Of a DNA stretch of 37,436 bases, positions 32,562 to 36,721 are shown one piece after another. The notes under the pieces are model-generated. The model had not been told where the DNA came from and searched no databases. It worked only from the letters and a program-made list of their open reading frames with translations. A program made the position numbers and the translations under genes. Each line of letters starts with the position of its first letter. The stretch's first letter is position 1. The stretch comes from a bacterium (GTDB lineage: Bacteria > CLD3). The DNA is taken from the NCBI GenBank assembly GCA_020850775.1, contig JADZEA010000127.1, positions 1-37,436 on the forward strand, read 5' to 3'.

Positions 32562-33491
32562 TCAGTTGTTGGCAGTAACGGTGTAAAAAACGTTTGTATT
32601 GTTTGAAACTGCGTTTGTGTCAGTAAAGTTTGTTGTTGCAACTGTAGTTAGAAAAATCATTGTTGTTGGCTCGTTTGTAGATTTATAAATTTTATAGCTT
32701 GTTGCGTTTGGGATTTGTGTCCAGAAAAGCTGTGCATTGTTTCCCAAAGTTGTGATTTGCAAATCCGTAACTGGTAGCAGAACGTCGTCAAACATCGTAA
32801 TGTTTTTGTTTACAGCGTTTCCGTTTGCGATTACGATTTGAGTTGGGTTTGCAAGGGAACCAAAAAATCCGCGTGGTTCGTTTGAATCTAATTGCAGGTT
32901 AGAATTTTTATCCATAAAAGCCATTGCGTAGTAGGTTCCGTTGGCTAAGTGAACTTCGTAGTTTCCGTTGCCGTTTCCTGTGAAAGTCAGGTTAAAGGCA
33001 GACGGAGTTCCTGTAAAATTTTGATTGTTGTAAGCAAAAATCACAGTTGGTCCGGAATCAGTTCCTGAGTAAGAGATGTTTCCGGCAAAGTAGTTGGTTG
33101 GCGGGACGGCGAGAGCGATATTTTTTCCTGTTTGGTTGCTTCCGCTGACTACAATTTGAGTTGGGATTGTTCCGCCGAAGTAGCCAATTTTATCTGTAAC
33201 GTCAAAGGCAGAATTGGCGTTCACGTCCTGAAAAGCCATTACGTAGTAGCTTCCGTTAGGGACGTTTTGCAGTGAGTAGTTGTAACTTGTTGAGAAAGGG
33301 AATGGGTTAGTTTGTGAGTAAGGCAAGTTAGTCGGGTCAATCGGAGCTGTAGGGAGTTGGCTAAGAGCGGCGACGATTAGTGTTTTCAGGGCACCTGTAG
33401 TTACGTTTGTAACTGTTCCGGTGATGTTTGCGGCAAAAAGGTTTGTGCAAGCTAAAGTTGTTGCAAGCAAGGTTAGTAAAGATTTATTCAT
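32562..33491 (-). CDS. Secreted two-repeat protein with EF-hand-like loops and an FN3 domain
   Basis: This 309-aa protein has a Sec signal peptide (MNKSLLTLLATTLACTNLFA). The mature part has two repeats of about 100 residues, each ending with a Y-Y-x-M-A-F segment, a Ca-binding-like loop (DVNANSAFDVTDK and DKNSNLQLDSNE), a G-Y/F-FG turn and a strand PTQIV. A C-terminal fibronectin type III domain follows (VTDLQITTLGNNAQLFW to FYTVTANN). Asn and Thr are very abundant. It is probably an exported, perhaps surface-bound protein. The ATG overlaps the stop of the upstream TPR gene (ATGA), with AGGAGG 4 bases before it, so it is translationally coupled. Function is unknown. Confidence 0.82.
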   Translation of the reverse strand: MNKSLLTLLATTLACTNLFAANITGTVTNVTTGALKTLIVAALSQLPTAPIDPTNLPYSQTNPFPFSTSYNYSLQNVPNGSYYVMAFQDVNANSAFDVTDKIGYFGGTIPTQIVVSGSNQTGKNIALAVPPTNYFAGNISYSGTDSGPTVIFAYNNQNFTGTPSAFNLTFTGNGNGNYEVHLANGTYYAMAFMDKNSNLQLDSNEPRGFFGSLANPTQIVIANGNAVNKNITMFDDVLLPVTDLQITTLGNNAQLFWTQIPNATSYKIYKSTNEPTTMIFLTTVATTNFTDTNAVSNNTNVFYTVTANN

Positions 33492-35158
33492 TTTTCCTCC
33501 TGTTTTTTATGAATGTTAATCATATTTACGTCATCAATGTACTGAATCAACTCTGGTTCGTCAATTGACTGGAAATTTTCTAAAGTTCTGAAAAGTACGC
33601 GGATTGCGTTTCCTATTGCGTCAAGCACTCTTTTTTCTTTTTCGTCTAACTTGTCATAAATTAGTATTTTAATTATTGTTAAATTACCACTTAAAACAGT
33701 TAAGGGGTCATTAATTTTTTTGATTTCTGCAACTAAGTAGTTGAAGACACTTTTGATTTCACTTTGGATAATTTTATCTTGTGTTTCTGAAAGAATGTCC
33801 TGAAGTTTTTTTAAATCAATGTTTTTCAAGAAATAGATTTCTTTATCGGCTTGTTCATTTTCTACTTCGTGAGAAATTTGGAGGCTTTTTATTTTTTGGT
33901 TTGTTTGTTCGATGAAAGTTTGTTCTTCCACCTCGTGAAATTTTCTGAAAAATTCCAATGCTTTTTGTGGTTTTTGGAATTTTTTATAAGTTTCAAAAAG
34001 TGAGTAGCAAACTTTTTTGATCAGTGGTTTTGATTTTATTTCCTGAGCAAGGTAAAGAGCTTCTTCTAAAAATTTAGTTGAATTATTTATGTTTTTAATT
34101 TTTGCGTAAACGTTGCCAAGGAACAAAAGAGAGTGGATTTCGCCCTTGATGTTTCCAAATTTTCTGTTGTTTTCAAGGGCGTCAGCCAAAGTTGAAATTG
34201 CTTTTTCATTTAAATCCAAGTGATTGTAAGTTTCACCAATCAGGTTTAGAGAATCGCCTTTTTTAGAATTTTTATTTTTTTGTTCAATGATTTGGAGGCT
34301 TTTCATTTGGAATTCGAGGGATTTTTGGTAAGAACCTAATTCTTTGTAAACCTCTCCAATGTTACGAAAACAAGCTTCTCTTAAATCGTCATTGTTAATT
34401 TCCACAGCAATTTCAAGGCTTTTAAAATGATAATCTGAAGCAGTTTTAAAATCTCCTAACTCACTGTAAATATTTCCGATATTATTTAAGGAATTTCCAA
34501 GACCGTAAGAATCCTGAAGTTCCTCTTTAATTTTCATACTTTCGAAATTATACTCAAGTGCTTTTTCAAAATTTCCCAAGCTTCTGTGGATGTTTCCAAT
34601 GTTGTTCAGGCTTGAGGCGATGCTTCTTTTATCGCCAAAATTTTGTTTAATTTCAATGCTTTCAAGGTAATATTTTAGCGATAAATCAAGGTCTCCAATA
34701 AAATGGTAAACAATGCCAATATTATTTAAGATGCTTGCTTTGTTTTTTTCGTCTTTAAGTTGTTTGTAAATTTCTAAACTTTTCAGATAAAATTCTAAAG
34801 CATTGTTTGAGTTTCGTAAAATTCTGTAAGCATTTCCGAGATTGTTGTAAACAGAGGCTTCACCTTGTTTTTCTTTTGTTTGGATAAAAATTTTTAAGGC
34901 TTTTTCCAAGTTTTCAAAGGCTTCATCGAAGTTTGAAAGAACAATGTTGCAAGCTCCAAGGTTCCGTAAACTGTAACCTAAACCTTTTGTGTAGGAAATT
35001 TTTTCAGAAAATTCTTTAGCTTGTTTGCTTAGTTCAATGGCAAAAAGGGAATTATTATTTCTAATTTCCCAGGCAAAATCATTAAAAATATCAATTTTGT
35101 CTTTGATATCGTCAGTTGATTGCAGCTCAAGCTCAAAATCTTTAAAATTATTTGCCAT
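33488..35158 (-). CDS. TPR protein with degenerate histidine-kinase dimerisation domain (no ATPase)
   Basis: This 556-aa protein is a paralogue of its upstream neighbour. Residues about 45-410 form roughly nine 40-residue TPRs with the pattern SLNNIGNI(H/Y)..LG(N/D)F..A. A coiled coil (about 415-470) leads into a two-helix segment, INDPLTVLSGNLTIIK then LDEKEKRVLDAIGNAI, which aligns with a HisKA/DHp domain. The phospho-accepting His of the neighbour is replaced by Lys480. No N, G1 or G2 box follows; the protein ends YIDDVNMINIHKKQEEK. No signal peptide is seen, so it is cytosolic. It is 21 bp downstream of its paralogue, and its last codons carry the SD of the secreted-protein gene. Role: probably a regulatory scaffold (inference). 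Confidence 0.82.
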   Translation of the reverse strand: MANNFKDFELELQSTDDIKDKIDIFNDFAWEIRNNNSLFAIELSKQAKEFSEKISYTKGLGYSLRNLGACNIVLSNFDEAFENLEKALKIFIQTKEKQGEASVYNNLGNAYRILRNSNNALEFYLKSLEIYKQLKDEKNKASILNNIGIVYHFIGDLDLSLKYYLESIEIKQNFGDKRSIASSLNNIGNIHRSLGNFEKALEYNFESMKIKEELQDSYGLGNSLNNIGNIYSELGDFKTASDYHFKSLEIAVEINNDDLREACFRNIGEVYKELGSYQKSLEFQMKSLQIIEQKNKNSKKGDSLNLIGETYNHLDLNEKAISTLADALENNRKFGNIKGEIHSLLFLGNVYAKIKNINNSTKFLEEALYLAQEIKSKPLIKKVCYSLFETYKKFQKPQKALEFFRKFHEVEEQTFIEQTNQKIKSLQISHEVENEQADKEIYFLKNIDLKKLQDILSETQDKIIQSEIKSVFNYLVAEIKKINDPLTVLSGNLTIIKILIYDKLDEKEKRVLDAIGNAIRVLFRTLENFQSIDEPELIQYIDDVNMINIHKKQEEK

Positions 35159-35179
35159 TATTTTAAGTCTCTCAATCCA

Positions 35180-36721
35180 CTACTTTTTTTTACTAATGTT
35201 AATAATATTTATGTCATCAATAGTTTTTAGTAAAGTTGGTTCTTCAATTGAGCGTAATTTATTTAAAATATTAGAAATACTGTCAATAGATTTTTCCATA
35301 TTTTGCAAAATACGTATCTCTTTTTCGTTCAATTTTCCTTCTGAAAACATTTTTAGAATTGCCAAATTTCCTTTTAAAACTGTCAATGGTTGATTAAACT
35401 CGTGATTTGTCGTAACAACAGTTGCAACAAACATTGATTTTTTTTCGCTTTCAATGAGTTTATTTTGTGCCTCAATGAGTTTTTGGTTTAAATCAACTAA
35501 CTCTATATTTTTCAACCTGTAGATTTCTTTTTCTTTTTCTGCTTTTTCTACTTCAAAACTTATCTGTAATTTTTTTAGTTTGCTGTCGGATTCTTCGTTA
35601 AAAACTTCTTTTTCCAAACTATGAAATTTTTCGTAGTGTTCAAGTGCTTTGTCAAAATTCTCAATTGCTTCGTAAGTTTTTGAAAATGCTTCGTGAGTTT
35701 TATAAATTAAAGACTTTGCTCCGATACTTTCGGCAATCACAAGGGCATTTTGCAGGTTTTCCAAACTTTGATTGTAATCCTTTAAGTCAAAATAAATCTG
35801 ACCGTAAAACAAATGGCAGTTAGCTTCCTGAAGTTTGTAATTAATTTTCTTGCTAATTTCAAAACTTTTTGTGTTGTACTCTAATGCTTTGTCTGTTTCA
35901 CCAAGCTTTTGGTAAACAACTCCAAGCAAACCCAAATTTATACTGAAATTCTGTTTGTTACCAATTTGCGATGAAATTTCAAGACTTTGCTCTAAGTATT
36001 CAATGGCTTTTACGGGTTCATTCAACTTGAGAAAAATTTCTCCAATGCCTGTTAAAGCAGTTATTTTACTTTTTACCCCTTTTGTTTTTTCCGCAAGTTC
36101 TAACCCTTTTTCGTAATAATCCAATGCTTTTTGGTGTTCTTCCAAGTCAGAATAAACATTCCCAATATTATTGAATGAAGCACACAAGTCTTTTAAATCT
36201 TCTATTTTTTCACGGATTTTCATACTGCTTAAATGATAATCCAAAGCCTTTGGGTAATCACCTAAGTTTCGGTAAAGATTCCCAATATTGTTGTAAACAA
36301 CTGCCTCAAAGTTTTTATCTTTTTCCTTTTTTGCAATTACCAAACTCAAAAAATAACTTTCAAGTGCATTCTTAGAATCACCAATGTTTTTGTAAGCTAT
36401 TCCAATTTTATTTAAAGCAAGTGCTTCTATTTTTTTATTGTTACTTTTTCTTGACAATTCAAGCGTCTCGTTTAGAGTTATCAAAGCATCTTTGTAGTCA
36501 GACAAGTGATTTTGCAGGCTGCCAAGATTGTCTAAAGCCGTCAAAAGACCTTGTTCATAATTTATTTTTCTTGCAATTTCAATAGTTTTTTTAGCTATTT
36601 CATGGGCAAAAGTGTAATCAGAAGATTTTGTTAGTGAATACATCTGATTTAAAATATCAACCTTTTTAAACAGGTCTTTAGTAGATTTTAATTTTTCTTC
36701 AAGCTCAATAATTTTATTCAT
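35180..36721 (-). CDS. TPR protein ending in a DHp-like (HisKA-like) domain, no ATPase
   Basis: This 513-aa cytosolic protein has about eight to nine TPRs (residues ~35-365, for example NNIGNLYRNLGDYPKALDYH). A coiled coil (KLKKLQISFEVEKAEKEKEI) leads to TTNHEFNQPLTVLKGNLAIL, which looks like a histidine-kinase H-box with His440 (35402-35404), and then a second helix (LNEKEIRILQNMEKSIDSI). The protein then stops at TIDDINIINISKKK, with no HATPase_c domain. It is the first gene of a minus-strand block and is divergent from moaC. Compared with gpmI, its Tyr codons are less biased to TAC (16 TAC, 8 TAT). Likely a signalling scaffold or trans-phosphorylated partner (inference). Confidence 0.84.
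   Translation of the reverse strand: MNKIIELEEKLKSTKDLFKKVDILNQMYSLTKSSDYTFAHEIAKKTIEIARKINYEQGLLTALDNLGSLQNHLSDYKDALITLNETLELSRKSNNKKIEALALNKIGIAYKNIGDSKNALESYFLSLVIAKKEKDKNFEAVVYNNIGNLYRNLGDYPKALDYHLSSMKIREKIEDLKDLCASFNNIGNVYSDLEEHQKALDYYEKGLELAEKTKGVKSKITALTGIGEIFLKLNEPVKAIEYLEQSLEISSQIGNKQNFSINLGLLGVVYQKLGETDKALEYNTKSFEISKKINYKLQEANCHLFYGQIYFDLKDYNQSLENLQNALVIAESIGAKSLIYKTHEAFSKTYEAIENFDKALEHYEKFHSLEKEVFNEESDSKLKKLQISFEVEKAEKEKEIYRLKNIELVDLNQKLIEAQNKLIESEKKSMFVATVVTTNHEFNQPLTVLKGNLAILKMFSEGKLNEKEIRILQNMEKSIDSISNILNKLRSIEEPTLLKTIDDINIINISKKK

Follow-up and report, generated by a model that had tools for sequence, protein, structure and literature searches.

The window, that is the whole 37,436-nucleotide stretch of DNA analysed here, carries two tandem genes of a stand-alone, kinase-less DHp family with a conserved tail and a missing ATPase domain, and the two are degenerate in opposite ways, the histidine being kept in one and the tail in the other. 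Members of this family may be dimeric His-Asp phosphotransfer proteins, represented here by a heterodimer in which one chain would give the His and the other the tail, a reading that we regard as evenly balanced between right and wrong. That a two-chain histidine phosphotransferase has been split between tandem paralogues, with the tail acting on the partner's His and with at least three independent origins, is plausible, if slightly short of an even chance. We infer the heterodimer, the phosphotransfer, the gating by the TPR array and the partner.

Genes 1 and 2 (Table 1) lie on a common strand with 21 bp between them, and the ORF and Pfam analyses confirmed the sequence-only reading of this DNA, which had described adjacent frames of 513 and 556 aa with TPR arrays and a DHp-like hairpin that stop without an ATPase domain. 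TPR_12 matched both proteins (E 7e-49 for gene 1 and 2e-63 for gene 2). The HisKA domain proposed for both was found by Pfam in gene 1, at residues 439-492 (E 7e-8), where the phospho-acceptor had been placed correctly at His440; gene 2 has no Pfam HisKA match and carries Lys481 at the His position. No HATPase match, with its N, G1 and G2 boxes, was obtained by Pfam or among the ORFs in either gene or downstream, and because the unrelated DUF2141 gene overlaps the stop of gene 2, there is no ATPase remnant beyond the pair. This overlap of the DUF2141 start with the end of gene 2 also means that the DUF2141 gene is probably translated with the pair. The DUF2141 protein has a signal-peptide-like start, a secreted product that is apparently co-translated with a cytoplasmic signalling pair. 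No two-component genes adjoin gene 1 or gene 2 among the ORFs scanned, and neither protein matches Hpt (PF01627) in Pfam, the Hpt matches of the genome being located elsewhere.

Table 1. Positions of the gene pair, its neighbour and the conserved elements within the window
Feature	Position	Strand	Description	Basis
Gene 1	35180..36721	(-)	513 aa; TPR array, coiled coil, DHp with His440, degenerate tail	ORF; Pfam TPR_12 and HisKA
DHp region, gene 1	35249..35470	(-)	residues 418-491	alignment; helical hairpin in model
His440 codon, gene 1	35402..35404	(-)	predicted phospho-acceptor	aligned with H of HisKA
Tail, gene 1	35183..35245	(-)	residues 493-513; Tyr replaced by Thr500 (35222-35224), Met by Ile	alignment
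Gene 2	33488..35158	(-)	556 aa; TPR array, coiled coil, His-less DHp-like hairpin, intact tail	ORF; Pfam TPR_12; module profile
DHp-like region, gene 2	33566..33784	(-)	residues 459-531	alignment
Lys481 codon, gene 2	33716..33718	(-)	at His position	alignment
Intact tail, gene 2	33491..33562	(-)	residues 533-556; Tyr540 (33539-33541), Met546	alignment
DUF2141 gene	32562..33491	(-)	4-nt overlap with gene 2 stop	ORF, Pfam

Alignment of the His boxes sets NHEFNQPL of gene 1 against IKKINDPL of gene 2, while the two most conserved residues of the tail, a Tyr and a Met, are lost in gene 1 and kept in gene 2, so that the gene 1 tail is worn, but still present. In both proteins the hairpin is followed by a tail of only ~21-24 aa, with no ATPase-like or degenerate C-terminal domain. 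The signature of the family, which consists of an NHE[ILF]NQPL box, a second helix and a Tyr-x5-Met-hydrophobic tail near the C-terminus, is therefore carried jointly, the box by gene 1 and the tail by gene 2, and the claim that both genes follow the same plan gives way to a pair of complementary degenerates. It follows from this complementary degeneration that only the 513-aa protein would be able to take phosphate at the DHp His site. The wider arrangement of an input domain joined to a HisKA-like region with its His and no HATPase is found in gene 1 and in ~84 of 93 stand-alone modules, and gene 2 departs from it by lacking the His.

An alignment of 40 diverse modules yielded the consensus A-x5-N-H-E-[IL]-N-Q-P-L, followed by a second helix and a tail with a nearly invariant Tyr and Met. 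The AlphaFold2 monomer model of gene 1 residues 386-513 (mean pLDDT 89.6, lower at the tail) shows the helical hairpin suspected at the C-terminus, in the form of a long helix and a second helix, and the tail appears as a short pair of strands; in a model of a REC-DHp-REC protein the pLDDT falls below 50 over the tail stretch 207-226. A fold search with the hairpin matched DHp structures, including CpxA, GacS, RetS-GacS and ERS1, at Z 8-9, but unrelated hairpins scored equally high, hence the fold match alone proves little. In a profile comparison hhalign aligned the module with kinase DHp regions over 82 columns (E 2e-23), and the DHp is thus clearly derived from kinases. In a global profile alignment the tail comes to lie beside the kinase 'V-D-L' segment, whereas the local alignment ends before the tail, and it is a guess that the tail shares ancestry with the beginning of the ATPase domain.

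A search with the module profile revealed that the DHp-tail-stop arrangement recurs in dozens of other proteins, which is more than chance. In full kinases the match to the profile ends near column 75 and ~160 aa more follow, whereas in module proteins it extends over the tail and the chain ends soon after, mostly within ~15 aa; in a third form a second REC domain follows the tail (REC-DHp-tail-REC). The inputs ahead of the DHp-tail module are TPR, REC, PAS or GAF domains, and the genome scan identified hosts in Calditrichota, Cloacimonadota, KSB1, Aminicenantes, Neomarinimicrobiota, Latescibacterota and others. The source genome contains seven copies, the window pair included, compared to about 30 HisKA-HATPase kinases; the others are two TPR proteins (C31, C103), two REC proteins (C34, C42) and a PAS-like protein (C117). 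One of these, the REC-DHp-tail protein C42 (G000; L012:2290-3285), has NHSINQHL in place of NHEINQPL, meaning that the Glu after the His and the Pro of the box are replaced, and its tail is intact. The nearest relative among the genomes covered, G001, has 13 or more copies, comprising ten of TPR size and at least three short ones. Among relatives of a Calditrichia genome, most carry a single strong copy, which is a REC-DHp-tail protein (~226-261 aa) or a longer form (~335-383 aa), architectures that are deduced from length.

This recurrence bears on whether the proteins might simply be truncated or misassembled histidine kinases, as the clear kinase origin of the DHp and the fragmented state of the assemblies could be taken to suggest. 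We give this explanation hardly any credence and have rejected it: the end point and the conserved tail recur across phyla with no ATPase remnant downstream, and a single strong copy is present in most of the Calditrichota-related genomes searched. The view that the window genes are not random truncations, and that DHp proteins sharing a tail form a family that stands alone, is accordingly borne out across phyla, and the refuting case, in which every relative runs on into an ATPase domain, was not encountered, as module proteins stop at the tail. A shortage of Hpt proteins was considered as a reason for the family and discarded, for the genome has two Hpt matches above the cut-off and one below, which leaves no clear gap.

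Complementary losses are not confined to the window. A His+/tail- gene beside a His-/tail+ gene was found in seven tandem pairs, namely the window pair and six more in four Cloacimonadota genomes (loci L110, L152, L153 with two pairs, L154 and L155), and in the Cloacimonadota pairs the His-bearing chain ends as soon as the second helix is complete. In six of the seven pairs, the gene with the His precedes its partner. At L153:1951-8344 four tandem TPR-DHp genes alternate as His+/tail-, His-/tail+ twice over, as if a pair had been duplicated as a unit. The 93 stand-alone modules include 72 with both features, 9 without the His, 12 without the tail and none without both, although chains lacking both could escape the profile search. 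His loss affects 7/16 tandem modules as opposed to 2/77 others (Fisher p 4e-5) and tail loss 7/16 versus 5/77 (Fisher p 6e-4), with kinship uncorrected in both tests. Unpaired copies nearly always keep both His and tail. The five unpaired modules without a tail comprise three that look like non-members (L116, L120, L033) and two partial cases (L069, L184), and the two unpaired His-less ones are C31 and L158, which lies at a contig edge. C31 (G000; L009:2333-3862) is a TPR-DHp protein with Tyr for His and an intact tail, with a REC-flanked kinase ~3-4 kb away on the same contig, and it might partner a His+ copy elsewhere. The only other tandem pair among the 93 modules, L151, consists of two near-identical copies that each have both features.

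The window proteins cluster with L015 and C31 in a tree built from 42 TPR-DHp proteins, in which the L152 genes are sisters. The pairs of G046 and G047 resolve into one His+ clade and one His- clade, which means that this pair arose early and was duplicated whole, and the L110 genes sit elsewhere on long branches. On this topology, the split onto opposite chains would have three to four origins. The closest relative of gene 1, L015, has no adjoining module gene and has kept both features. Given one loss of each kind, the probability that the losses fall on opposite chains by chance is 0.06 with four origins and 0.13 with three. Searches of 242 and 193 genomes with His-less profiles uncovered no further strong His-less copies, hence the sample of pairs is small.

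The same distribution helps to judge whether the C-terminus is a mere dimerisation handle for TPR scaffolds, in which the His is a relic and its loss is neutral. TPR arrays usually bind other proteins and some copies do lack the His, including the unpaired C31, but it is retained in 84/93 modules, 8/9 losses affect tandem genes or a gene at the edge of a contig, and the invariant NHE-INQPL surroundings fit an active site, which makes such a neutral handle quite improbable.

In the favoured phosphotransfer reading, the TPR input is fused to a DHp hairpin, the His of which would exchange phosphate with REC domains, and the short tail after the second helix would be required for this exchange. 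The tail starts at the point where a kinase would enter its ATPase domain, and it could therefore act in the vicinity of the His. Most members have the His and the tail in one chain and would presumably work as homodimers; in the window His440 would come from the 513-aa chain and the intact tail from the 556-aa chain, and because labour is divided in this way between tandem copies, the two chains probably work as a heterodimer that has a single His and a single tail. The donor of the phosphate might be found among the cell's ordinary kinases, about 30 in number, or hybrid receivers, and its flow could be gated by ligand binding to the TPR array. Several findings weigh against this reading: the opposite-chain pattern has no more than three to four origins, C31 is His-less although unpaired, the gene 1 tail is worn and still there, the ORFs scanned beside the pair include no two-component gene, and most members keep the Glu that follows the His, a residue that CrdS needs for autophosphorylation and not for phosphatase action (PMC3510030).

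Two other activities have to be weighed against phosphotransfer, and CrdS offers a guide to both, because there the acid that follows the His is required by the kinase step alone, and a Thr or Asn at +4 by phosphatase action alone (PMC3510030). The module could join the DHp of a full histidine kinase and be trans-phosphorylated by its ATPase domain or block it, with the His-less copy serving as an inhibitor or decoy. DHp heterodimers are known, the RetS-GacS co-complex being among the structural matches, and the Glu at +1 is kept in 74/84 His-bearing members. Nevertheless, the window pair has no kinase gene alongside, what recurs next to a His-less copy is a His+ member of the same family without its tail, and the loss of the tail in that partner would be left without explanation, thus we consider this unlikely. 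The earlier suggestion of decoys or of heterodimers with true kinases fits less well with the pairing pattern, which points to two adjacent products joining each other. Alternatively, the module could be a phosphatase for REC domains controlled by the tail or the TPR array, a role in line with its fusions to REC domains and suggested for archaeal HisKA proteins without HATPase (PMC5847659). However, most members have Gln at +4, where CrdS requires Thr or Asn, and the acid at +1 is kept, a combination that argues against a plain phosphatase, which we rate as distinctly unlikely, and leaves room for phosphorylation by a kinase in trans. These proteins might also belong to a split kinase with a separate ATPase-only protein as the partner; the weak HATPase matches without HisKA in the genome include the HSP90 of the window and several short frames of 82-144 aa.

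Spo0B, a histidine phosphotransferase, keeps a C-terminal domain. ChpT shows that a DHp dimer of kinase origin can act as a phosphotransferase while lacking autokinase activity, and what ChpT and Spo0B share with the present family is a kinase-derived DHp hairpin that serves phosphotransfer without such activity, which for the family is the proposed working mode (PMC3433190). ChpT retains an ATPase-like C-terminal fold, whereas the family has only a ~20-aa tail, with TPR, REC, PAS or GAF inputs ahead. A parallel to the tandem pairs is provided by FasB and FasC of group A Streptococcus, co-transcribed tandem kinase-like chains that have been reported or proposed to form a heterodimer in which one gives the His, but both keep DHp and ATPase, and the complementary function is the ATPase there and a short tail here (PMC12675982). 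Similarly, RetS-GacS (structure 7n0e) demonstrates that DHp domains of two different proteins can join, although these are full kinases in an inhibitory complex and not tandem complementary degenerates. TPR-coiled coil-HisKA-HATPase kinases have the same order of TPR, coiled coil and DHp, whereas the module lacks the ATPase domain and ends in its own conserved tail.

HisKA proteins without HATPase are a known but unstudied kind. In archaea such proteins, labelled 'HisKA, no HATPase' or 'possible incomplete histidine kinase', are described as unstudied, and a phosphatase or phosphotransfer role is suggested for them; they likewise have sensor domains, a C-terminal HisKA-like region with a conserved His and no HATPase, and also occur as REC-(PAS)-HisKA, and unlike here, the passages covered mention no tail, REC-DHp-REC form or complementary tandem pairs (PMC5847659). 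In the portion of the literature covered, neither the tail nor complementary pairs were found described, and the same holds for REC-DHp-tail-REC proteins in these phyla. ATPase-less DHp proteins are treated as incomplete or misannotated kinases. The natural split of His and tail provides a ready-made genetic test of the role of the tail and of the sufficiency of one His per dimer.

The REC-DHp-tail and REC-DHp-tail-REC fusions are counted in favour of phosphotransfer, and together with hybrid HK-REC neighbours and a recurrent STAS / REC-HATPase_c_2 gene order they would indicate, at the level of sequence, that phosphate is exchanged with REC domains. Along with the conserved tail and the hybrid-kinase and partner-switching neighbours, the REC-DHp-tail-REC form suggests a distinct relay output module. 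In two Aminicenantes loci (L101:1-2812, L119:2-2797) a hybrid kinase of HAMP-HisKA-HATPase-REC architecture abuts or overlaps a REC-DHp-tail gene, as expected for a phosphorelay. In Calditrichota-type loci the order STAS / REC-HATPase_c_2 / REC-DHp-tail-REC was confirmed by Pfam at L076:691-3193, L083:535-3184 and L094:748-3187, and a similar order was assigned from sequence likeness and gene order at L077, L081, L084, L087, L091 and L097. The STAS and REC-HATPase_c_2 neighbours constitute a partner-switching module of the anti-sigma type beside the kinase-less DHp protein, and at L073 a SpoIIE-type phosphatase and a HATPase_c_2 fragment are located upstream instead.
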